NCBI GenBank assembly: GCA_002010665.1
Contig: MTON01000003.1
Location: forward strand, 115,991-153,165
DNA from: Candidatus Aminicenantes bacterium JdFR-78
GTDB taxonomy: Bacteria; Acidobacteriota; Aminicenantia; JdFR-78
DNA: 37,175 nt
Direction: 5' to 3'
Shown: one piece after another, positions 21,837 through 32,138 of the stretch
How the letters are laid out: each line of letters starts with the position of its first letter
Position numbering within the stretch: position 1 is the first letter of the stretch
Position numbers and translations under genes: made by a program
Notes under the pieces: model-generated
Databases searched by the model: none
What the model was told of the DNA's origin: nothing
Seen by the model: the letters and a program-made list of their open reading frames with translations, nothing else

Positions 21837-22820
21837 TCAATATTCTTTTTTTCTGAGCAGATATATAAAGAAAGGAGCTCCTATTATAGCAGTAACAATT
21901 CCTATAGGAAGTTCAGTAGGTGAAAAAATAGTTCTGGATATTAAATCTGTAAATATCAAAAATATTCCACCGAGAAGAGCTGAAAATGGAAAGAGAAACC
22001 TATGATCTGGCCCAATTATAATTCTGACAAGATGAGGAACTATTAAGCCCACAAAGCCAATAATCCCACTAATTGAAACAGAGGCCGATGCTAAAAAAGT
22101 AGCCAGCACAAGAAATATTTTTCTAATTCTATTTACAGGACATCCCAAAGATTGAGCAACCTCATCACCTTGAACTAATAGATTCATTTCTCTTGAAAAA
22201 TATATAGAAACAGAGAAGCAAATTAAAAAATAAGGCAAAAAACTTATAACCTTTTCCCAATCAGCCAAAGATAAGCTTCCAAGAAGCCAAAATATTGCCT
22301 CACTCATTGATTCATTTTGCCAGAAAATTAAAAAAGAAGTTAAGGCTGAACAAAGCGCCCCCAGCGCAATACCTATTAAAAGAAGAGTTTCGATTTTAAT
22401 AGTTCCCTTACTTTGTGAGAGGAGGTAAACAAGATACACAATTAGCAGTCCGCCAGAGAAAGCAAATAATGTTTGACTTGAAAGATTCAAAAAGGTGAAT
22501 TGAAGATTAATTGTATATGTTAAGACAGCTCCTAAAGATGCACCTGAGGAAACTCCAACAACAAAAGGACCTGCCATTGGATTTTGGAAATAGCCTTGAA
22601 GGATGGCACCTGAAAGGGAAAGAGCAGAACCAACAAGAAAAGCAAGAATTACACGAGGCAATCTTATATCAAAAAAAATGGATGTATACATTCCCTCAAT
22701 TCCGAAGATAGATTTTATCAAGTCCAATAAAGTTGTTTTAACAGAACCTAATAGAAGTGAGAGAAAAATACCAATAATAAGCATTATCAGGAGTATAAGA
22801 AGAAAATATCCCTTTTTCAT
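21837..22820 (-). CDS. btuC: ABC transporter permease, FecCD/BtuC family (cobalamin uptake)
   Basis: A 327-residue inner-membrane permease with about ten helices. Family hallmarks visible include RLPRVILAFLVGSALSLSGA near residue 53, GYFQNPMAGPFVVGVSSGAS, and the ATPase-coupling SGIIGFVGLIVPHLVR segment near 257, followed by GPDHRFLFPFSALLGG. It pairs with the ATPase and binding protein just upstream. The cobalamin riboswitch controlling the operon makes B12 the substrate rather than iron-siderophore. The start is ATG 22820, 5 bases after the binding-protein stop. Confidence 0.93.
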   Translation of the reverse strand: MKKGYFLLILLIMLIIGIFLSLLLGSVKTTLLDLIKSIFGIEGMYTSIFFDIRLPRVILAFLVGSALSLSGAILQGYFQNPMAGPFVVGVSSGASLGAVLTYTINLQFTFLNLSSQTLFAFSGGLLIVYLVYLLSQSKGTIKIETLLLIGIALGALCSALTSFLIFWQNESMSEAIFWLLGSLSLADWEKVISFLPYFLICFSVSIYFSREMNLLVQGDEVAQSLGCPVNRIRKIFLVLATFLASASVSISGIIGFVGLIVPHLVRIIIGPDHRFLFPFSALLGGIFLIFTDLISRTIFSPTELPIGIVTAIIGAPFFIYLLRKKEY

Positions 22821-22825
22821 TCTAA

Positions 22826-23737
22826 TTAATTCTTATTATTGAAAATTTCAGGATGAAGAATTTCTGCCAATCTTGTAAAACCATCAATCAGCCTTGGACC
22901 CTGCCTGCTTAATAAATCTTCATTAATATAGAAAATTCTGTTATACCTGACTGCATCAATTTTTCTTAAAATTTTATCCTTTTTCCACCATTTTTCTGCC
23001 CTTTTAAAATCCTTTTCTTTTTTTGCAAGAATAATTATTATTTCTGGATTCTGATAAAGTAATTTTTCCTTGTTATATTTAATCCAGGATTTTGGGATAC
23101 CACAGGCTATATTTTGAGCCTTAGCTTCTAAAATTAATTTATTGAGGAAACTCTTCTTTCCACATGTCCATAGTTCCTTTCCATGTAAAGAGAGAAAAAC
23201 CTTAGGATAATTATTAACAGAAGAAAGTTTTTTCCTTAATTTCTTATATTTTGCTTTTAATTTTTCAATAAGTTTTTGTGCTTCTTTTTCCCTAAAGGTC
23301 ACAGCACCTATTTTTTTTATTAAAGAAAAGGTTCCTTCAATTCCCTTCTTACTATCTAAGACAAAAACTTTGATTTTAAGTTGTTTTAGTCTTAAAATAG
23401 AATCTAATCTGTTACCTCGAAAGGCAAGAACTAAATCCGGATTTAAAAATTTTATTTTCTCTATATTTATATCTACAACACCACCAACTTTCTGCTTGAA
23501 GAGTGTTTCAGGTGGATAATCGCAATACCGGGTAACTCCCACAATATTTTTATTCAACTCTAATGCAAACAAAATTTCAGTTAAATTTGGAGCAAGAGAG
23601 ATGATTCTCTCAGGCCTTGATGATATTTCAATTTTAAAGCCTAAATCATCATAAAATGTTTTACCATTTACAGTTATAAATAAGCTAATTATAAATATTA
23701 TAGAAACTGATATTTTTATCTTCATTAGAATTTTCAT
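22826..23737 (-). CDS. btuF: Cobalamin-binding periplasmic protein (BtuF-like)
   Basis: A 303-residue type-III substrate-binding protein. It has an N-terminal signal peptide (about residues 1-25) and the helical-backbone fold typical of BtuF/FhuD: RPERIISLAPNLTEILFAL near residue 42, then GVTRYCDYPPE, a KVGGVVDINIEKIKFLNPDLV stretch, and a C-terminal RQGPRLIDGFTRLAEILHPE segment. It delivers B12 from the receptor to the BtuCD permease. The ATG overlaps the ATPase stop by 4 bases. A second ATG four codons downstream is an alternative start. No lipobox is visible. Confidence 0.88.
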   Translation of the reverse strand: MKILMKIKISVSIIFIISLFITVNGKTFYDDLGFKIEISSRPERIISLAPNLTEILFALELNKNIVGVTRYCDYPPETLFKQKVGGVVDINIEKIKFLNPDLVLAFRGNRLDSILRLKQLKIKVFVLDSKKGIEGTFSLIKKIGAVTFREKEAQKLIEKLKAKYKKLRKKLSSVNNYPKVFLSLHGKELWTCGKKSFLNKLILEAKAQNIACGIPKSWIKYNKEKLLYQNPEIIIILAKKEKDFKRAEKWWKKDKILRKIDAVRYNRIFYINEDLLSRQGPRLIDGFTRLAEILHPEIFNNKN

Positions 23738-24510
23738 TTAATAAAGTAAATCTCAGGTAGTCCTGTTTCCGGATTTTTTCTTACCTTAACAGTTGTATTG
23801 TAAACCTGTTTAATATTCTCTTCATTAACAATTTCATTGGGCTTTCCTTCTTTAAAAATGCCACCATTATTGAGAAAAATTATTCTGTCACAAAAAGGAA
23901 TTACAAGATTTATGTTATGTTCTGTACAGACAATAGTCTTGCCCTTCTCTTTGCATAAGTTGAAGAGCAGCCTGTAAATTTCTATTTGAAAATTCAAGTC
24001 AAGATGAGCGCTTGGTTCATCAAGAAAAATTAATGGCGTATCTTGGGCTAAAGCACGGGCAATAAGGACTCTTTTTCTTTCACCTCCACTTAAATGAGCA
24101 ATTCTCCTCTTCTGAAATTCTTTTATCTGTGTAAATTCCATTGCCTCATTTATCTTTTTTCTATCCGATTCAGTGAGTTTGAATATTCCTCCCTGATGGA
24201 CATAACGTGCCATTTCAATTAGTTCCTTGACTGTAAATTGAAAAATAAAATCGCTTAATTGCGGAACATAAGCCACCTTTCTTGCAATTTGTTTTGGTCC
24301 CAAGCCGTTTATTTTAATACCTTCTATGTAGACTTCACCTTTTATATTAGGTATCAATTTTTGAATTCCTTTTATTAAAGTAGTCTTCCCAGAACCATTT
24401 CTTCCCAGAATGCAGAGTAATTCTCCCTTGAAAACACTAAATGATATATCATTTAAAACGTATCCATTCTCATATCCAACCGAAAAATTTTTTATTTCCA
24501 ATATTTTCAT
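23734..24510 (-). CDS. btuD: ABC transporter ATP-binding protein (cobalamin uptake)
   Basis: A 258-residue ATPase with Walker A GRNGSGKTT (about 37-45), Q-loop VPQL, signature LSGGERKR, Walker B PLIFLDEPSAHLD and the switch His in CTEHN. It powers the BtuC permease. A start at ATG 24510 is preferred over the TTG at 24516 because AGGAA lies about 6 bases upstream of that ATG; the longer form adds two residues. The gene lies 13 bases downstream of the receptor gene and overlaps btuF by four bases. Confidence 0.92.
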   Translation of the reverse strand: MKILEIKNFSVGYENGYVLNDISFSVFKGELLCILGRNGSGKTTLIKGIQKLIPNIKGEVYIEGIKINGLGPKQIARKVAYVPQLSDFIFQFTVKELIEMARYVHQGGIFKLTESDRKKINEAMEFTQIKEFQKRRIAHLSGGERKRVLIARALAQDTPLIFLDEPSAHLDLNFQIEIYRLLFNLCKEKGKTIVCTEHNINLVIPFCDRIIFLNNGGIFKEGKPNEIVNEENIKQVYNTTVKVRKNPETGLPEIYFIK

Positions 24511-24523
24511 ATTCAATTCCTAA

Positions 24524-26350
24524 TTAAAAACCATACTCAACACCAAAATAAATTCCCCTATCAGGAGATGGATAACCATAGACCTCTTCATATCTCTCGT
24601 TTAGGACATTTGTTATTTTTGAAAAGATGTGAATATTTTTCCTTATTTCATATTTTAATGAAATATCAAATTTGTTAAAGGGTGAATTTTCTATCGTTAC
24701 AAAGTGAATGTCGTCCCAATCCTTTCTTTTTCCTATATAAATGAAATTTAAAAATATATTAAATTTTTCAATAGGTCTTAAATTAAAACTGAAGTTAAAA
24801 CTATGTTTTGGTCTTCTCAATAGTTGTTTATTTTTGTCATCCTTTGCAATTAAGTGTGTATAATTAAGTTTGAGATTGAAATTTCTATGGGGAATGAGAA
24901 AAAAGGAGAGTTCTTCTCCATTAATTTTTGTTTGAGCTAAATTTTGGAATTTCAAAGTTGAAAAATCATATACTATTAAATCCTTAATGAGGGATGAGAA
25001 ATAAGTAATCCCAATTATTATTCGAGAATTTAATAATTTTTGTTCAATTCCGACTTCCAAGCTTTTGCTGATCTCGGGTTTTAAATTTCTATTACCCCAG
25101 AATGTATATAATTCAAAAGGTCTTGGCGCTCTGAAGCCAGTGCCTGCACTTGCTTTTAATTTTGTATCATTTAAAAATAGAGCTCCTGTGATTCGAGGAC
25201 TAACGTGAAATCCAAACTCTGTATGATGGTCGATTCTTATTCCAGCTGTTATAGAAAGATTATGGAGATGAGTTTGATTTTGGACGAAAAAAGCTCTTAT
25301 ATCAAATCTTTTATTATTTATTCCTGTGCCAAAATTATCTTCACTAAAAACAACAAAATTTCTCCATTCACCCCCGATTGTGAAGATTCCTTTTGAGTAA
25401 TTAATGTCAGATTGAATATCAAATCTTAAAGCTCTTGATCTTGTATGCGAATAACTCCAGAAGCTATCAGGGTCGTTAAAGATATAATTTCTTCGAAAAT
25501 ACGATAAATTTAATTTTAATTTCATAAAGGAAAAATTTCCTGTAAAAGGCAAACTAAGAATGGTTTCCTCAGTTCTCTGTCTTCTATTAGGAGATAAAAT
25601 GCTTGCAGATGAAAAGGGGATGCCGAGATTGGTTTTTGTATATCTTAAAAATGCCTCGAGCTTACTTTTATTAGTTAGAATTAACTCCCCTCTTAATGAA
25701 GCGGTCATGTTTTTATAGTCATCATTTTGGAAATTTCCTCTTGTTGAGAAATAACAAGTATTTAGATAGAGACTCCCAATTTGGTTTCCTAAGGAAAAGG
25801 AAAATGAGCCCTTATAGGTTGAATCGCTTCCACCTATAAAATTAAGGTTAAATTTTGTATCCCTTTTCCCTCTTTTAGTTATGAGATTTATTACTCCCCC
25901 AATAGCATCAGAGCCATAAAGAGTACTTTGAGGCCCGCGAACTATTTCAATTCTTTCTATGTCATCAATCATTAAAGAAGAAAAATCAAAATAGGAGGAT
26001 AAGGGGTCATTAATTGGTATTCCATTTATAAGAACAAGATTATGGTCAGATTCTGAGCCTCTTATAAAAAGTGAAGTTAAATGACCGATAGAACCAGCTT
26101 GAGCCTTAATAAAACCAGGAACATCTGTTAAAATTTCAGCAAGAGTTATTACTTGTCTTTGTTTTATCTCCTGTTCAGTAATTAAAGTAAATGAGGTTGA
26201 AACCTTATCCGCTGGTTCCTCTAATCTATTAGCCGTGACAATAATATAATGTCTTATAGGATACTTCACTTTTTCTTTCTTTTCTTCTTTACCAAAAATA
26301 AATGAAACAATTAAAATAAATGTAAATAAATAAATAATTAATTTTTTCAT
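24524..26350 (-). CDS. btuB: TonB-dependent outer-membrane receptor for cobalamin (BtuB-like)
   Basis: A 608-residue protein with a signal peptide (residues 1-20), a probable TonB box (HYIIVTANR near 35-43) and a plug domain. The plug shows LAEILTDVPGF, LFIRGSESDHNLVLINGIP, and IERIEIVRGPQSTLYGSDAIGG. A long beta-barrel ends in aromatic GVEYGF, as expected for outer-membrane assembly. The cobalamin riboswitch in its leader and the BtuDFC genes downstream identify vitamin B12 or a corrinoid as substrate. AGGAGG precedes the ATG on the minus strand. The receptor proves a diderm envelope. Confidence 0.93.
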   Translation of the reverse strand: MKKLIIYLFTFILIVSFIFGKEEKKEKVKYPIRHYIIVTANRLEEPADKVSTSFTLITEQEIKQRQVITLAEILTDVPGFIKAQAGSIGHLTSLFIRGSESDHNLVLINGIPINDPLSSYFDFSSLMIDDIERIEIVRGPQSTLYGSDAIGGVINLITKRGKRDTKFNLNFIGGSDSTYKGSFSFSLGNQIGSLYLNTCYFSTRGNFQNDDYKNMTASLRGELILTNKSKLEAFLRYTKTNLGIPFSSASILSPNRRQRTEETILSLPFTGNFSFMKLKLNLSYFRRNYIFNDPDSFWSYSHTRSRALRFDIQSDINYSKGIFTIGGEWRNFVVFSEDNFGTGINNKRFDIRAFFVQNQTHLHNLSITAGIRIDHHTEFGFHVSPRITGALFLNDTKLKASAGTGFRAPRPFELYTFWGNRNLKPEISKSLEVGIEQKLLNSRIIIGITYFSSLIKDLIVYDFSTLKFQNLAQTKINGEELSFFLIPHRNFNLKLNYTHLIAKDDKNKQLLRRPKHSFNFSFNLRPIEKFNIFLNFIYIGKRKDWDDIHFVTIENSPFNKFDISLKYEIRKNIHIFSKITNVLNERYEEVYGYPSPDRGIYFGVEYGF

Positions 26351-26442
26351 TTAAATTCCCTCCTTTCTTTTTCATTTTGCATTTCACCACTTTACATTTT
26401 ACTTCCATAAAAGGAATTCTCCGGAGGGAAGGATGAGGTAAT

Positions 26443-26476
26443 AAAAAATCGCCTCATCTTCCACCCGAAGATGGGC
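26443..26476 (-). terminator. Riboswitch-controlled intrinsic terminator
   Basis: On the minus strand GCC-CATCTTC (26476-26467), loop GGGTG, GAAGATG-A-GGC (to 26451) forms a stem with one bulge, followed by GATTTTTT (U-run 26448-26443). It lies directly after the cobalamin aptamer and 93 bases before btuB. The 3' arm GATGAGG can instead pair with CCTCATC at 26438-26432, giving a possible antiterminator. Confidence 0.88.
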
Positions 26477-26483
26477 TTTGATC

Positions 26484-26647
26484 AGAGGCAAGAAGGTATC
26501 CTGGCTCTCGGATCATCCTCCTCCCACGCCTTCCCACTCCTCGAAGGAGCAGTGGCTTTACCACCTTTCTGGTGGTTGTGAGATTCGTCCCCGATTACAG
26601 TAGCGGGGGCTGCGTCCGCTTTTCACGGACTTCCCTTCATTGCCCCT
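26484..26647 (-). promoter_or_regulatory. Cobalamin (B12) riboswitch aptamer
   Basis: Read on the minus strand, this has the conserved parts of the class in order: P1 strand AGGGGCA (26647-26641), a GGGAAGTCCGTGAAAAGC segment, GCCCCCGCTACTGTAA (26610-26595), AGCCACTG (26557-26550), GGGAAGGCG, the B12 box AGCCAGGATACC (26506-26495) and the closing P1 strand TGCCTCT (26490-26484), which pairs with AGGGGCA through one G-U. Binding of adenosyl- or aquocobalamin should favour the downstream terminator and shut off the btuB-btuD-btuF-btuC operon. Confidence 0.96.
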
Positions 26648-26681
26648 GTTCATATCACATAATATTGTTTTTTCTTTCCTT

Positions 26682-26692
26682 TCACCTCCTTA
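26682..26692 (-). other. Shine-Dalgarno-like TAAGGAGGTGA in the riboswitch leader
   Basis: TAAGGAGGTGA matches the full anti-Shine-Dalgarno complement but sits about 24 bases before the nearest ATG, which is followed at once by TGA. No leader peptide can be supported. It may be chance or a ribosome standby site. Confidence 0.3.
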
Positions 26693-26709
26693 CTTAAATT
26701 CGCTTCACT

Positions 26710-26806: not shown

Positions 26807-26835
26807 TTGACAATAATTTTTCCATATGATATAAG
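26807..26835 (+). promoter_or_regulatory. Promoter of the radical SAM operon
   Basis: TTGACA (26807-26812), 17 bases, TATAAG (26830-26835). The ATG of the radical SAM gene is only 10 bases after the -10 box, so transcription should start within about 2-4 bases of the start codon. The TTG at 26807 is part of this -35 box and is therefore not a start codon. Confidence 0.78.
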
Positions 26836-26845
26836 CAACCTGATT

Positions 26846-28195
26846 ATGGTAAGAAGAAAACCCCAGTTTTTATCCGAGGGAATAAGGCATGCAACCATAA
26901 ATGGACATAGATTTCATTTGAGATTAACTGACCCTACTAAGGAGAATTATTTGTGGATTGACGGAACTCAGCCACCCCTTATTCTTGATCAGGTTGCAGG
27001 AGAATTTATTGCTCATCTTATTGATGCAATGTGGAAATTTCAATCAGGAGAAGGAGATCATTCCGAAGAAGTAATCAATTATGTGGTTGAAAAAATGCAT
27101 AAAAAATATTCAAAGTGGTATGTTCTGAAAAAAATAAGCAAAGAGAGAATTCGAGCTGATCTTGACAGAATTTTTGGAACAATTATGGATATTGCAGAAG
27201 GTAAATGTCCTATGGAAGCGAATATTCCTATTAAGGAAGTAAAATCTGAGAAATGGATAGCTCCAGCAAGGATGGATTTAGCAATTACTTATCGCTGTCA
27301 GCTTAATTGTGAGAAATGCTATGCTGGTGGTTCAAATGAAATGAAAGAATTATCCACAAAAGACTGGATTAAAATTTATGATATTATCTGGAAAATTGGT
27401 GTTCCCCAAATTGTTTTTACAGGGGGTGAACCTACTTTAAGAGAGGATTTAATCGAGCTTGTCGGCGAAGCAGAGGAATTTGTAACTGGTCTTATAACAA
27501 ATGGAATTGAGCTGGAGAGACTTGCAGAACCACTGAGAAACGCAAGTCTTGATTATATTCAGGTTACGATTGAATCGCATAATCCAGAAATACATGATAA
27601 AATGGTTGGATTCAAAGGAGCTTTTGAAAGCACATTAGCAGGAATAAAAAAAGCTCTCTCTCTGGAAATGCAGGTTATAACCAATACCACATTAACAAAA
27701 GAGAATGCTCATACTTTTCCTGACCTTATTAAATATGGAAAGGAGTTGGGACTGAAATATATGGCATGCAATACAATTATATGCAGTGGAAAGGGAATCA
27801 AGTATAAGAGAGAAAAGGAGCTTCCTCCACAGGAACTGGAAGAGATTCTAATGCGCGCCCTCGAGCTTGCTGACAAGCTTGGAATTCAACTTCAGTGGTA
27901 TTCTCCAACTTGTTATCTTTTCCTCGATCCTATAAAGCTTGGTTTCGGGATGAAGCAGTGCTCAGCAGCATCACATAATATGACAATACAACCTGATGGA
28001 ACAGTCCTCCCCTGTCAATCTTGGTTTGAACCAATTGGAAATATACTAGAGGATAAATGGAAGGATATTTGGAGACATCCTGTTGCAAAGAAATTGAGAA
28101 ATCATGAATTCTTAAAGGAAGAATGCAAGAATTGCGAGTATCTATCCGCATGTAGAGGAGCTTGCCCTTTAGAGCATTTAAATAAAGAGATGTAA
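26846..28195 (+). CDS. Radical SAM/SPASM protein, probable peptide/protein maturase
   Basis: A 449-residue enzyme when started at ATG 26846. The N-terminal 140 residues include LILDQVAGEFIAHLIDAM followed by charged helices, with an arrangement reminiscent of PqqD-like peptide-recognition domains (inference). The radical SAM core has C151-QLN-C155-EK-C158 (CxxxCxxC) and FTGGEPTLR (191-199). The C-terminal SPASM region has KQCSAASHNMTIQPDGTVLPC and CKNCEYLSACRGAC, able to carry auxiliary Fe-S clusters. No Shine-Dalgarno is visible, and the promoter abuts the gene. The stop is one base from the next ATG, and that next product ends in a Cys-rich tail, so it is the likely substrate. Such SPASM enzymes typically install thioether or other crosslinks or mature metalloproteins. 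Confidence 0.88.
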   Translation: MVRRKPQFLSEGIRHATINGHRFHLRLTDPTKENYLWIDGTQPPLILDQVAGEFIAHLIDAMWKFQSGEGDHSEEVINYVVEKMHKKYSKWYVLKKISKERIRADLDRIFGTIMDIAEGKCPMEANIPIKEVKSEKWIAPARMDLAITYRCQLNCEKCYAGGSNEMKELSTKDWIKIYDIIWKIGVPQIVFTGGEPTLREDLIELVGEAEEFVTGLITNGIELERLAEPLRNASLDYIQVTIESHNPEIHDKMVGFKGAFESTLAGIKKALSLEMQVITNTTLTKENAHTFPDLIKYGKELGLKYMACNTIICSGKGIKYKREKELPPQELEEILMRALELADKLGIQLQWYSPTCYLFLDPIKLGFGMKQCSAASHNMTIQPDGTVLPCQSWFEPIGNILEDKWKDIWRHPVAKKLRNHEFLKEECKNCEYLSACRGACPLEHLNKEM

Positions 28196-28196
28196 A

Positions 28197-29135
28197 ATGA
28201 AAAAAATAAAATATTTAATATCTATCTCTGTTTTTTTTATTTTATTTGTTTATTCTTATGCTGACACAGGTAAATATCGAATTCTTAGTTATAAAGTTTA
28301 TTTAACACCACGTTCTGACGGAAGAGTTGAGATAGAATACTATCAGAAATGGCTCGTAACTGATGGTTATATTCCATGGATAACTGTTGGCACAGCAAAT
28401 AGTAATTATCAGATTTATCCTGAGAGGAATAAGGGCAATATATATCGAATTTACTCTAATAATTCGACTAATTGGTCAGGAATAAAAATTGAACTTGATA
28501 AAAATTATCTTCCAGGTGAGACATTTGAAGTTGGTTTTACAATCATTCAGAGCAGACTTTTCTATGCTGATGAGGAAAATTACAGGCTTGATTTTACACC
28601 AGGATGGTATGATAGAGCTATAACTGAGAAATTAACCATTAGTGTTCGTATTTTTGCTCCAATTGATAAAGTAAGAGCTACTCCTCCTCCAACAAAAATT
28701 GAAGATGAGAATTTAATATGGGAAGTATTTAATCTGGGTAAAGGTCAGAAGTTTAATATATCAATTTCAATCCCCAAAAATTTTATTCCAAATATAAATC
28801 CTCAGGTACTGAAAATTAAGTATACTGGAACTCAGGCTGGAGATTGGCTATCAATTTTTATATTTTTTATTATATTTTTTGTTTTTACTATCATAATAAT
28901 AATTCTTTCAAAAACCAGAAGATATGGAAGAGGTGGAATTATATATACTGGAGGATACAGAGGAGGTTCATCAGGCAGAACTACTGGAGGAGGTGGAGGT
29001 TTTGGTGGAAGGGCATCTTCGTGCGCGTGTGCTTGTGTTTCCTGTGCCTGTGCCTGCGCCTGTGCAGGAGGAGGTGGAGCTGGATGCACGAAAAAGTTAT
29101 TTTTTCCAAAAAATTTTAGAACAATAGAAAATTGA
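28197..29135 (+). CDS. DUF2207-like membrane protein with alternating-cysteine C-terminal tail
   Basis: A 312-residue protein: signal peptide (residues 1-22), an extracytoplasmic beta-rich domain (about 25-210) resembling DUF2207, and one strong transmembrane helix (about 218-241). This is followed by positive residues KTRRYGR, a Gly-rich linker (GGYRGGSSGRTTGGGGGFGG) and a tail with Cys276, 278, 280, 283, 285, 287, 289 and 297 (CACACVSCACACACA, then GGGGAGC). There is no cysteine elsewhere in the protein. The positive-inside rule places the tail in the cytoplasm, where the radical SAM/SPASM enzyme encoded one base upstream could reach it. The tail could be crosslinked or hold a metal. The stop overlaps the next TTG start. 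Confidence 0.82.
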   Translation: MKKIKYLISISVFFILFVYSYADTGKYRILSYKVYLTPRSDGRVEIEYYQKWLVTDGYIPWITVGTANSNYQIYPERNKGNIYRIYSNNSTNWSGIKIELDKNYLPGETFEVGFTIIQSRLFYADEENYRLDFTPGWYDRAITEKLTISVRIFAPIDKVRATPPPTKIEDENLIWEVFNLGKGQKFNISISIPKNFIPNINPQVLKIKYTGTQAGDWLSIFIFFIIFFVFTIIIIILSKTRRYGRGGIIYTGGYRGGSSGRTTGGGGGFGGRASSCACACVSCACACACAGGGGAGCTKKLFFPKNFRTIEN

Positions 29136-29683
29136 GTAAAATTTTAAAAGCATTATTTATTATATTTATCATTTTCCTGTCTTTAAATTGTGGGAAAGAA
29201 CAACCTTATGATAGTAATATCAATGTTCCAAAAGGAGATCCTCCTTTTCCTCAACTTGAAAATTATTGGATAATTGATAAGGTAGGAGTTCTTTCGAAAG
29301 AAACAATAATAAAAGGAGATGCAATATGTCAGGCTTTAAAAGAGGACAATATTGCTGAGATGGTGGTTTTGATACAGACAGGTATAAAACATCCTGAAAA
29401 ATATGCCACACATTATGGTAGATGGCTAAGACTTGGTAAAAAAGGCAAAAGCACAGAAGGAGGAAATAATGGGATTGTATGGCTTATTAGACCAGATGCG
29501 AAATTAAAGATGACTATTTCAGTTGGTAGAGGACTCCCAAAATTTACCTCCTCTGATTATGGAGAAATAATGGAAAAGGCAAAAGAATACCTTAATTTTA
29601 ATAATTATGACAAAGGAATAATGATAATTATAGAAGAAACAAGTAAAAAATTAAGAGAATTGTATCCAAGGAGGAAAGAATGA
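29132..29683 (+). CDS. TPM-domain (YgcG/Psb32-type) lipoprotein
   Basis: A 183-residue protein with N-terminal hydrophobic segment and lipobox-like LSLNC (Cys20; the Asn at -1 is atypical). It is followed by a TPM domain: WIIDKVGVLSKETIIKGDAI, EMVVLIQTG, GNNGIVWLIRPDAKLKMTISVGRGL and a C-terminal NFNNYDKGIMIIIEE helix. TPM domains occur in phosphatase-like and photosystem-repair proteins and very often beside LemA and DUF2207 genes. The start is TTG 29132, overlapping the upstream stop (TTGA); no ATG is available nearby, so translation is probably coupled. Confidence 0.82.
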   Translation: MSKILKALFIIFIIFLSLNCGKEQPYDSNINVPKGDPPFPQLENYWIIDKVGVLSKETIIKGDAICQALKEDNIAEMVVLIQTGIKHPEKYATHYGRWLRLGKKGKSTEGGNNGIVWLIRPDAKLKMTISVGRGLPKFTSSDYGEIMEKAKEYLNFNNYDKGIMIIIEETSKKLRELYPRRKE

Positions 29684-30321
29684 GTAAGACAACAAAGAGG
29701 GGCATAATAATCTTTATCATAGTTCTTCTGATTGGCGGGATACTCTTTGCAACAGCATTTGTCCGGATTTACAATAGACTTAATATATTAAATCAGGCTG
29801 TTTTAGGAGGAAAATCCCTTTACTCCTCTGCATTAAATTTATGTAGTCAAAAGGTTAAAGCAGTCTGGGCAATGGCTGATCAGATTTCAGATAAGGAAAC
29901 TGAGGCTCAAAAGGCAATAGCAAGAGCACGCACTGGATTTGAGCAGGCAGAAAAATTGTTTAAAACAGCACTCGAAAGCGGAAAGGGAATAGAAGAGCTC
30001 ACAAGGGCTGCAACAGGTGTCCTGCGCTCCACCCTTGCCATTCGAGTTCAGCTTGAGGCTTATCCGGTAATAACAAGTGTGAGTACATACAACCAGGCAA
30101 TGAGAGGAGTGGAAGAAGGAATTAATGAGATAAAGACAGCTCTTGATGATTGGATAATGAGCATAAGAAATTATAATACCTATAGAAAAAGTTTCTGGGT
30201 TGATTTAATTGCAAGCATTTTTTCTGGAAAATTCAGTGTTTTCCCACAAGAGTATAAATACTATGAAGGTCCTATAGAGGAACTTGATATTGATGTTTTG
30301 AATCCTGAAAAGAGAAAATAA
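29680..30321 (+). CDS. lemA: LemA family membrane protein
   Basis: A 213-residue protein with one N-terminal transmembrane helix (about 8-29), then VRIYNRLNILNQAV and a long helical domain, with the typical distal pattern NYNTYRKSFWVDLIASIFSGKFS followed by KYYEGP. This matches LemA-family proteins (N-terminus anchored, four-helix bundle outside). Function is poorly known; LemA is repeatedly encoded with TPM and DUF2207 proteins. The ATG overlaps the upstream stop (ATGA), with AAGGAGGAAAG just before it. Last gene of the radical SAM operon; a new promoter follows at 30352. Confidence 0.85.
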   Translation: MSKTTKRGIIIFIIVLLIGGILFATAFVRIYNRLNILNQAVLGGKSLYSSALNLCSQKVKAVWAMADQISDKETEAQKAIARARTGFEQAEKLFKTALESGKGIEELTRAATGVLRSTLAIRVQLEAYPVITSVSTYNQAMRGVEEGINEIKTALDDWIMSIRNYNTYRKSFWVDLIASIFSGKFSVFPQEYKYYEGPIEELDIDVLNPEKRK

Positions 30322-30351: not shown

Positions 30352-30381
30352 TTGACAAACAGTTTTAAATCAATTTATAAT
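30352..30381 (+). promoter_or_regulatory. Promoter of the aminopropyltransferase pair
   Basis: TTGACA (30352-30357), 18 bases, TATAAT (30376-30381): both boxes are perfect. The ATG at 30394 is 12 bases after the -10 box, so the leader would be about 4-6 bases. The TTG at 30352 is part of the -35 box, not a start codon. Confidence 0.82.
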
Positions 30382-30393
30382 TCTTTTACAAAA

Positions 30394-31302
30394 ATGAAAG
30401 AAGGAATTTGGTTCATTCAGAAATATACGGATAATGCAACATTTCAATATTTGGTCAAAGAAATATATTTCAGCGGAAAAACTAAGTATCAAAAAGTGGA
30501 TATTGTTCAGGTTTTTCTTTTTGGTAAAAGTTTATTTTTGGATGATAAAATTCAGTCTGCAGAAGTTGACGAATTTGTTTATCATGAAGCTCTTGTTCAT
30601 CCAGCAATGATTGCTCATCCAAATCCTGAAAAAATTCTAATAATTGGGGGAGGAGAGGGAGCGACCCTGAGAGAAGTTTTGAAACACACAACAGTCAAGA
30701 AAGCAATTATGGTGGATATTGATGAAGAATTGGTAAAACTATGCGCAAAACATATGCCTGAATGGTCAAATGGAGCCTTTGAGGATTCCAGAACTGAGGT
30801 GATTTTCGATGATGCCAGAAAATTTATTGAAAATACGGATCAGAAATTTGATGTTATAATATCTGATCTTACTGAACCCCTTGAACAGGGGCCTTCAATT
30901 TATCTCTTCACCCGTGAATTTTACAAAAAAATTTATAATATTCTTAATGAAAATGGTGTTCTTGTTGTTCAATCAGGAAGTGCTGATCCCTATTATAATT
31001 GTTTCTTTGCATCTGTTTATAAAACCTTGGAGGAGATATTCCCTCTTGTAAAGCCCTATTGGACCTTTATTTTCTCATTTAATTTACCATGGGGTTTTAA
31101 CCTGGCATTAAAACAAAATAAAAAATCAGATATCAATGATGAAGAATTTAAAAGAAGAATAGATGAAAGTAAATTTGGAAAATTGAAATTTTATAATTTA
31201 GAATTAGATAAAGGTCTATTTTCCCTTCCCAATTATTTAAAAGAAACTCTCTCCAAAGGAAAAATTTCCACTGATTCTAAGCCCTTTGTCTGGGAAGCCT
31301 AA
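30394..31302 (+). CDS. Aminopropyltransferase (thermospermine/spermine- or agmatine-type, SpeE-like)
   Basis: A 302-residue spermidine-synthase-family enzyme that transfers aminopropyl groups from decarboxylated SAM. The SAM-binding loop is GGGEGATLRE, with VDIDEELV downstream, and the active-site loop reads SDLTEPLEQGPSIYLFTREFY. A C-terminal STDSKPF motif resembles the Thermus thermophilus triamine/agmatine aminopropyltransferase, suggesting longer or unusual polyamines. The start is ATG 30394: the upstream in-frame TTG lies in the -35 box. No Shine-Dalgarno is visible, consistent with a near-leaderless mRNA. It overlaps the second synthase gene by one base (TAATG). Confidence 0.87.
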   Translation: MKEGIWFIQKYTDNATFQYLVKEIYFSGKTKYQKVDIVQVFLFGKSLFLDDKIQSAEVDEFVYHEALVHPAMIAHPNPEKILIIGGGEGATLREVLKHTTVKKAIMVDIDEELVKLCAKHMPEWSNGAFEDSRTEVIFDDARKFIENTDQKFDVIISDLTEPLEQGPSIYLFTREFYKKIYNILNENGVLVVQSGSADPYYNCFFASVYKTLEEIFPLVKPYWTFIFSFNLPWGFNLALKQNKKSDINDEEFKRRIDESKFGKLKFYNLELDKGLFSLPNYLKETLSKGKISTDSKPFVWEA

Positions 31303-32138
31303 TGAGAAATCCCCTCTTGGAAAAGCCAAGAAGAGAGGAATATCATTCTCCTTACCATGGGTTATTTTTTAATGTTAAAAAAATCCTTTTTGAGGAGAAG
31401 ACTCAATTTCAGAAAATTGAAGTATTTGAAAACGAATTTTTTGGAAAAGTTTTGCTCATAGATGGACTGGTTCAGACAACTGAAAAGGACGAGTTTTTTT
31501 ATCATGAAATGTTAGTTCATCCAGCTTTTACTTCCCATCCCTCTCCAGAAGAAATACTGATCATTGGAGGAGGAGATGGAGGTGCACTTCGTGAAATATT
31601 ACGCTATAATGTAAGGAGAGTAAATCTCGTTGAAATTGATGAAAAAGTAATTGAAATTTCAAAAAAATTTTTTCCTAAACTGAGTTCTTCATTTGATGAT
31701 CCCCGAGTTAAAGTGATTATAGCTAATGGGGCTGAATATGTAAAAGATTTAAAGGAAAAATTTGACATATTAATTGTTGATTCATCTGACCCTATAGGCC
31801 CGTCCAAGGCCCTTTTTGAAAAAGATTTTTATATTTCATTAAAAAAAATACTCAAAGAAAATGGGGTAATAGTTTCCCAGACAGGTTCACCCTTTTATCA
31901 TCAGGACATTATTAAAAGATTGAATGAGACCCTAAGAAAAATCTATAAAGTTGTTAAATTTTATATTTCTCCTGTTCCCACATATCCAAGTGGCATATGG
32001 TCTTTTGTTTATTTGTCTGATAGTATTAATCCTCTTGAAATAAAAAGGAATGCACCTCCTAATTTAAAATATTATAATAAAGATATTCATTTTGCTTCAT
32101 TTACTCTTCCAAATTTTATGAAAAAACTGCTGGATTAA
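31302..32138 (+). CDS. speE: Spermidine synthase (polyamine aminopropyltransferase)
   Basis: A 278-residue enzyme with the canonical SpeE pattern: FGKVLLIDGLVQTTEKDEFFYHEM, GGGDGGALRE SAM loop, VEIDEKVIE, and catalytic VDSSDPIGPSKALF loop; then a YPSGIWSFVY segment. It makes spermidine from putrescine, or N1-aminopropylagmatine from agmatine in thermophile-type routes. It is coupled to the upstream paralogue through TAATG, implying sequential aminopropyl additions. It ends 1 base from the convergent DUF4097-like gene, with no terminator between. Confidence 0.92.
   Translation: MRNPLLEKPRREEYHSPYHGLFFNVKKILFEEKTQFQKIEVFENEFFGKVLLIDGLVQTTEKDEFFYHEMLVHPAFTSHPSPEEILIIGGGDGGALREILRYNVRRVNLVEIDEKVIEISKKFFPKLSSSFDDPRVKVIIANGAEYVKDLKEKFDILIVDSSDPIGPSKALFEKDFYISLKKILKENGVIVSQTGSPFYHQDIIKRLNETLRKIYKVVKFYISPVPTYPSGIWSFVYLSDSINPLEIKRNAPPNLKYYNKDIHFASFTLPNFMKKLLD

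Follow-up and report, generated by a model that had tools for sequence, protein, structure and literature searches.

A radical SAM/SPASM enzyme family paired with cysteine-tailed membrane proteins in Bacteria and Archaea

In a 37,175-nt stretch of DNA from Candidatus Aminicenantes bacterium JdFR-78 (contig MTON01000003.1, positions 115,991–153,165; hereafter, the window), a gene for a radical S-adenosylmethionine (SAM) enzyme with a SPASM domain lies directly ahead of a gene for a membrane protein that ends in a short, cysteine-rich tail. Here we report that this pair, an enzyme and the carrier of a tail, recurs in distant groups of Bacteria and Archaea and that its two members are found together with few exceptions. 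In whole-genome surveys of three distant classes, 116 of the 118 genomes with a Cys-Ala tail encode an intact enzyme of the family, and in the other two, broken or gapped pieces of it adjoin the tail. The enzyme very probably acts on the tail. The known cases of radical SAM peptide chemistry are mostly secreted peptides, along with a few enzyme cofactors; in lineages that range from Chloroflexi and Clostridia to Bathyarchaeota and Asgard archaea, such chemistry apparently targets membrane proteins at their cytosolic end, and the system may be a conserved way of altering a membrane protein. Because tail and enzyme co-occur almost perfectly and the tail is short and fixed, a C-terminal region of roughly 20 residues, both substrate and chemistry are directly testable.

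Tail and enzyme occur together

The surveys covered 691 genomes: 142 from the class of the window, 298 from a Chloroflexi class and 251 from the class of Bathyarchaeum. Within the window's own class, the tail occurs in 14 of 142 genomes, all 14 of which encode the enzyme; in the sole other genome with a close relative of the enzyme (G036), the contig breaks off shortly after the gene. Among the Chloroflexi, the tail is present in 36 of 298 genomes and the enzyme in each of these 36 (E about 1e-148 or better), with seven further genomes that have the enzyme without the exact tail pattern, three of them with a shorter tail nearby. The Bathyarchaeum class has the tail in 68 of 251 genomes, 66 with both components and two with the tail only, and includes one genome with the enzyme only. 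In one of the tail-only genomes, the adjacent enzyme gene is broken by stops and, in the other, it is cut by a gap of Ns; the enzyme-only genome holds a variant tail. Fisher p-values for the association are 2e-18, 9e-40 and 4e-57 in the window, Chloroflexi and Bathyarchaeum classes, respectively; they are uncorrected for kinship and only descriptive, because related genomes are not independent. An earlier note on this DNA, made from the letters of the window, had tied the enzyme to the cysteine tail of a membrane protein that stays in place, a proposal that would be refuted if such tails were commonly found without the enzyme. It stood up to this test in the surveys.

The same association is seen in a global scan for the tail pattern in about 85,000 genomes, which gave at least 80 loci with matches. 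Tails were taken as genuine when the pattern lay at the C-terminal position of an open reading frame (ORF), which excludes chance matches in DNA, and at least 70 genuine C-terminal Cys-Ala tails were found in Chloroflexi, Bathyarchaeota, Asgard archaea, Clostridia and others. A named isolate, Ornatilinea apprima P3M-1 (L073), has the system. The DNA sequences of the 70 tails listed all differ while their amino-acid pattern is constant, with both Cys codons and all four Ala codons in use, which marks the tail as a protein feature under selection instead of a repeat in the DNA. For 58 of these 70 tails, a gene of the enzyme family lies within the same 8-kb piece, although at a few loci this is only a pseudo-SAM paralogue. 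We considered the remaining 12 as exceptions and rejected this, as a whole-genome search found the enzyme elsewhere in every one of them (E 4e-115 or better). The enzyme is absent from five genomes with chance DNA matches and no tail ORF. The genome of the window has one such tail, and a reversed control pattern gave zero matches there. At one locus, L268 (genome G462), the enzyme is in at least four pieces, divided by stops or frameshifts, and the adjacent tail ends in CACACASGRVG, without the usual GGG; this is seemingly a decaying copy.

Tail type follows enzyme clade

Some Aminicenantes lineages and Chloroflexi have carriers that end in a second alphabet, (CHSA)n, for example (CHSA)7CVSGGAH. 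The enzymes found with CHSA tails form one clade (support 100/99) that spans Aminicenantes and Chloroflexi, and the enzymes found with CA tails, from Bacteria and Archaea alike, fall on the other side of the tree, which is unrooted between the CA group, the CHSA group and the outgroup and does not demonstrate a single exclusive origin for both. Homology of the carrier bodies extends across the window type, the long CA type and the CHSA type (hhalign E 9e-22, 8e-10 and 3e-30). Because the CHSA carriers are homologous to the others and go with a separate clade of enzymes in two phyla, the type of tail follows the clade of the enzyme and not the species; because the carrier body persists while the tail type changes, it is the tail that tracks the enzyme. 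Chloroflexi enzymes without a CA tail (E about 1e-107 to 1e-128) were examined as counter-examples and dropped, four of those read being adjacent to CHSA tails. In one family, f2, tail and enzyme are both encoded, at unlinked sites.

Loci in Chloroflexi, Armatimonadetes and Planctomycetes also carry an enzyme-like paralogue without CxxxCxxC, a weaker member of the family that groups inside the CA side of the enzyme tree. Such paralogues stand next to CA-tail systems at L052:3182-4522, L062:4275-5450, L074:3677-5041 and L120:3782-5143, among others. The paralogue may be a docking or stabilising, non-catalytic partner subunit. A different gene follows the CHSA-type enzyme in Aminicenantes (L045:6784-7716, L236:3681-4616 and L237:6210-7196); it is conserved, has a C-terminal motif like VLVIRQxTTxxSGYxT, gave no Pfam match in the one copy tested and is absent from the window operon.

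Architecture of the enzyme

The window enzyme matches the Pfam radical SAM domain (PF04055) with 84.2 bits against a cut-off of 29.5 and the SPASM domain (PF13186) with 47.7 bits against 21.5. Both the CxxxCxxC motif at residues 151–158 and the six-Cys SPASM region that had been noticed earlier are confirmed. Cys 151, 155 and 158 of the SAM cluster are invariant among 26 members of the family. The six SPASM cysteines of the window enzyme lack the last Cys of the seven-Cys pattern; three of them (Cys 372, 390 and 440) are invariant in the 26 members and the others are lost only in Clostridia members, from which the cysteines of auxiliary cluster II (Aux II) are missing. On the known SPASM pattern, Cys 372, 390 and 440 are the putative ligands of auxiliary cluster I (Aux I).

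In the AlphaFold2 (AF2) model of the window enzyme (mean predicted local distance difference test score of 90.9), three strands and three helices precede the radical SAM barrel. The Pfam PqqD domain, which has the fold of the recognition element (RRE) of ribosomally synthesized and post-translationally modified peptides (RiPPs), matches 18 of the 26 relatives (best 7e-7). With PqqD in relatives and the matching topology in the window model, the enzyme has the make-up of an RRE-containing RiPP maturase. Among solved structures, SkfB is the nearest both by sequence (2e-21) and by fold, with SuiB, CteB and PqqE also ranking high.

No equivalog cut-off of NCBIfam was reached among the best 25 matches of each enzyme scanned. 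The top match of the window enzyme, PqqE (TIGR02109), scores 128.7 bits against a cut-off of 381.35, and the other closest curated models, NirJ2, AhbD and GeoRSP, are all far under cut-off. The sactisynthase and ranthipeptide models (SkfB, AlbA, StsB and PapB) do not claim the family either, with 93.5 bits against 300 for SkfB and 79 against 625 for StsB in the window enzyme and 77.2 against 850 for AlbA in one relative. An NCBIfam model for radical SAM enzymes facing Cys-rich partners served as a lead only, since the enzymes reached no cut-off among these best 25 matches each.

The carrier protein

The AF2 model of the carrier has a signal helix (residues 2–20), a beta ectodomain (25–193), a membrane helix (215–243) and a disordered tail. 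All eight cysteines lie within this tail, CACACVSCACACACAGGGGAGC, as the earlier note had observed, and most carriers hold 6 to 10 tail cysteines. In 43 of 54 carriers, Lys and Arg are more numerous on the C-terminal side of the last predicted membrane helix than on its N-terminal side, with the reverse in five. Given the signal sequence, the membrane helix and the positive charges after it, the tail is most likely located in the cytosol, on the same side as the enzyme. As a 312-residue membrane protein with an ectodomain and a membrane helix, the window carrier does not have the short leader and core of a RiPP precursor.

The carrier had been likened to DUF2207 proteins. The likeness stands, in the form of weak matches of 4 of 16 carriers to the DUF2207 N-terminal domain, and membership does not: the best relative scores 18.3 against a cut-off of 24.4, and the window carrier gave no match to the Pfam model (PF09972). 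Six carriers scanned against NCBIfam gave zero matches, which left the TIGR04222 membrane domain as a lead only. Foldseek likened the ectodomain (window 28263–28775) to ribophorin I of oligosaccharyltransferase and to the N-domain of M1 aminopeptidase at E of about 1e-7 with low template-modelling scores, and these matches were not used to assign function.

Downstream of the carrier, the window has genes for a TPM-domain lipoprotein and a LemA-family protein, and a membrane-bound LemA/TPM complex had been suggested as the setting of the tail. As a general setting this is not supported: among the 80 tail-pattern loci listed, only L080, from another Aminicenantes, retains both TPM and LemA, with all four genes in order, and L067 has a LemA gene. 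As the common unit elsewhere is just carrier and enzyme, LemA and TPM are a local addition to a general two-component unit.

Proposed mechanism and alternatives

The architecture of the enzyme, the topology of the carrier, the co-occurrence in three distant classes and the joint change of tail type and enzyme clade lead us to read the enzyme as a dedicated maturase of the cysteine tail, RRE-guided and thioether-forming, an explanation that as a whole we hold to be somewhat likelier true than false; that the product consists of thioether cross-links is about an even call. In such a reaction, the RRE would dock a carrier strand close to the membrane, the Aux I cluster, with three conserved Cys ligands only, would bind a tail cysteine, and the 5′-deoxyadenosyl radical would abstract hydrogen from a small neighbouring residue (Ala, Gly or Ser). 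Several thioether links from Cys sulfur to carbon would form along the tail, to leave the membrane protein with a stiff ladder of thioethers permanently fixed to it in the cytosol and no released peptide. An open Aux I site takes a peptide cysteine in CteB, and SkfB has an open site too (PMC6231123). In streptosactin, the residue to which a Cys is linked is the Ser or Gly three residues further along (PMC8172795). This linkage is a suggestive precedent for cross-links in the tail, since inspection places Ala or Gly at i+3 of most tail cysteines in either alphabet; the exceptions are the CxxC step and CVHDA units. The modified tail may serve in cytosolic signalling, as a stiff element, in electron relay or in binding a metal. 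More broadly and more tentatively, at somewhat less than even likelihood, we picture a cross-domain system in which a radical SAM/RRE maturase, with a dead paralogue in some phyla, equips a permanent membrane protein with a thioether-laddered tail in the cytosol, each alphabet, (CA)n or (CHSA)n, being read by its own clade, as a protein-fixed device (a stiff sensor, or an electron or metal relay) with no known counterpart.

Several observations weigh against a thioether-forming tail maturase. The window enzyme, taken alone, gives no Pfam PqqD match; sequence similarity predicts the reaction of SPASM enzymes poorly (PMC6231123); and an alternating CxC pattern is also expected of a metal-binding tail. 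Further, one genome of family f2 (G014, 97% complete) has a CHSA tail and no recognisable enzyme of the family, and the genome G165 has the enzyme and no tail seen nearby.

Radical SAM enzymes of the same superfamily carry out several reactions, such as epimerisation and other C–H chemistry, so the enzyme could act on the tail by one of these, for example by epimerisation to alternating D-residues, with the changed backbone as the functional product. The alternation of Cys and small residues suits alternating chirality, and the closest curated models are scattered over PqqE, NirJ2, AhbD and GeoRSP, far under their cut-offs. We nonetheless consider this unlikely: the nearest solved structures, in sequence as in fold, are those of cross-linking RiPP maturases that have an RRE, and Cys is what the two tail types have in common, which points to chemistry at sulfur. 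The tail could instead be a metal or iron–sulfur ligand, membrane-tethered and akin to metallothionein or to an electron relay, and the enzyme would then help to build or load the centre. CxCxC repeats are classic soft-metal ligands, and the tails of most carriers hold 6 to 10 cysteines. Metal binding alone, however, needs no radical SAM enzyme in every genome, and it explains neither the strict Ala between the cysteines nor the separate enzyme clade for CHSA, and we judge this account quite improbable.

There are two further alternatives. In one, the carrier would serve as a RiPP precursor of an unusual kind, from which the modified tail is cleaved to give a released or exported peptide. The RiPP maturase architecture with its RRE and the fixed GGGR or GGxH at the tail end would fit a precursor, but carriers are membrane proteins of 300–650 residues with conserved bodies and the neighbourhoods read show no recurring protease or exporter, so this is very unlikely. 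In the other, the enzyme works elsewhere in the same pathway on something other than the tail, which stays unmodified, and shared function alone keeps the two genes in company. Such an arrangement would be at home in the family where tail and enzyme genes are unlinked; yet tail alphabet and enzyme clade change jointly across phyla while the carrier body stays, and we consider this possibility very unlikely as well.

Relation to known systems

The window enzyme family shares with the sactisynthases SkfB, AlbA and CteB and with ranthipeptide maturases the architecture of RRE, radical SAM and SPASM/Twitch domains and a Cys-rich partner sequence; it has three invariant cysteines in the presumed Aux I site. 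Unlike these, the window family lies far below the NCBIfam cut-offs of the SkfB, AlbA and PapB models, no recurring exporter or leader peptidase is seen nearby and the partner is a membrane protein of 300–650 residues instead of a short precursor peptide. QhpD, which forms the thioethers of QhpC in quinohemoprotein amine dehydrogenase, is likewise a radical SAM/SPASM enzyme that modifies a protein that stays a protein (PMC8172795), but QhpC is a small dehydrogenase subunit and not a membrane protein with a C-terminal tail, and the QhpD model is not among the best 25 NCBIfam matches of the scanned enzymes. PqqE and PqqD resemble the system in that PqqE ranks first among the NCBIfam matches of the window enzyme and Pfam PqqD matches the N-terminal domain in relatives; here, however, the PqqD-like domain is fused to the enzyme and the partner is no PqqA-like peptide. 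The cysteine tail and the enzyme partner both fall outside the family definition of DUF2207 (PF09972).

Searches of open-licence literature, which leave a description elsewhere possible, found nothing relevant on the enzyme–tail pairing or on radical SAM enzymes with LemA/TPM, DUF2207, Cys-rich tails, alternating Cys or CxCxC, and matches for CACACACAG were swamped by DNA primers. As far as could be tested, the kind of enzyme is known, and the kind of substrate, the two tail alphabets and the cross-domain spread are new.

The window operon and its neighbours

Table 1. Features of the enzyme–carrier operon, in window positions
Feature	Position	Strand	Basis
Radical SAM/SPASM enzyme, 449 residues, ATG start	26846..28195	+	Pfam, AF2 model, nearest solved structures
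PqqD/RRE-like N-terminal domain of the enzyme, about residues 11–120	26876..27205	+	AF2 model; Pfam PqqD in relatives
CxxxCxxC for the SAM-binding [4Fe-4S] cluster, residues 151–158	27296..27319	+	Invariant in 26 relatives
SPASM region, Cys 372, 390, 427, 430, 436 and 440	27959..28165	+	Pfam SPASM
Carrier membrane protein, 312 residues, DUF2207-like	28197..29135	+	ORF, AF2 model, homology to carriers of all tail types
Carrier membrane helix, then KTRRYGR (positive, cytosolic side)	28839..28925	+	AF2 model; charge count in 54 carriers
Alternating cysteine tail CACACVSCACACACAGGGGAGC, presumed substrate	29022..29087	+	Sequence; conservation in relatives
TPM-domain lipoprotein, 183 residues, TTG start, local partner	29132..29683	+	Pfam TPM_phosphatase; ortholog at same place in L080
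LemA-family protein, 213 residues, local partner	29680..30321	+	Pfam LemA; orthologs in L080 and L067

The four genes are spaced as the earlier note had described them, with a 1-base gap between the enzyme (end 28195) and the carrier (start 28197), a 4-base overlap between the carrier (end 29135) and the TTG start of the TPM gene (29132) and a second 4-base overlap between the TPM gene (end 29683) and the LemA gene (start 29680). The single promoter that it had placed ahead of them is undemonstrated, the best plus-strand match upstream being only 9 of 12. An in-frame TTG lies at 26807, upstream of the ATG of the enzyme. The TPM (PF04536, TPM_phosphatase) and LemA (PF04011) assignments score 45.8 and 37.2 bits against gathering scores of 22.1 and 26.2, respectively, and the same genes are present in the Candidatus Aminicenantes records G050:C183 and JAPKZM010000169.1.

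On the minus strand at 21837–26693, divergent from the enzyme operon, lies what is apparently a vitamin B12 uptake operon: a cobalamin riboswitch (26474–26693, 93.9 bits) precedes a TonB-type receptor gene (24524–26350), accompanied by genes like those of a BtuF/BtuC/BtuD-type ATP-binding cassette importer. Directly after the LemA gene, a tandem pair of spermidine-synthase-like genes with a one-base overlap occupies window 30352–32138. A perfect TTGACA-18-TATAAT stands at 30352–30381 ahead of the spermidine-synthase-like gene, so the listed TTG start of that gene is probably part of the promoter and its true start the ATG at 30394.

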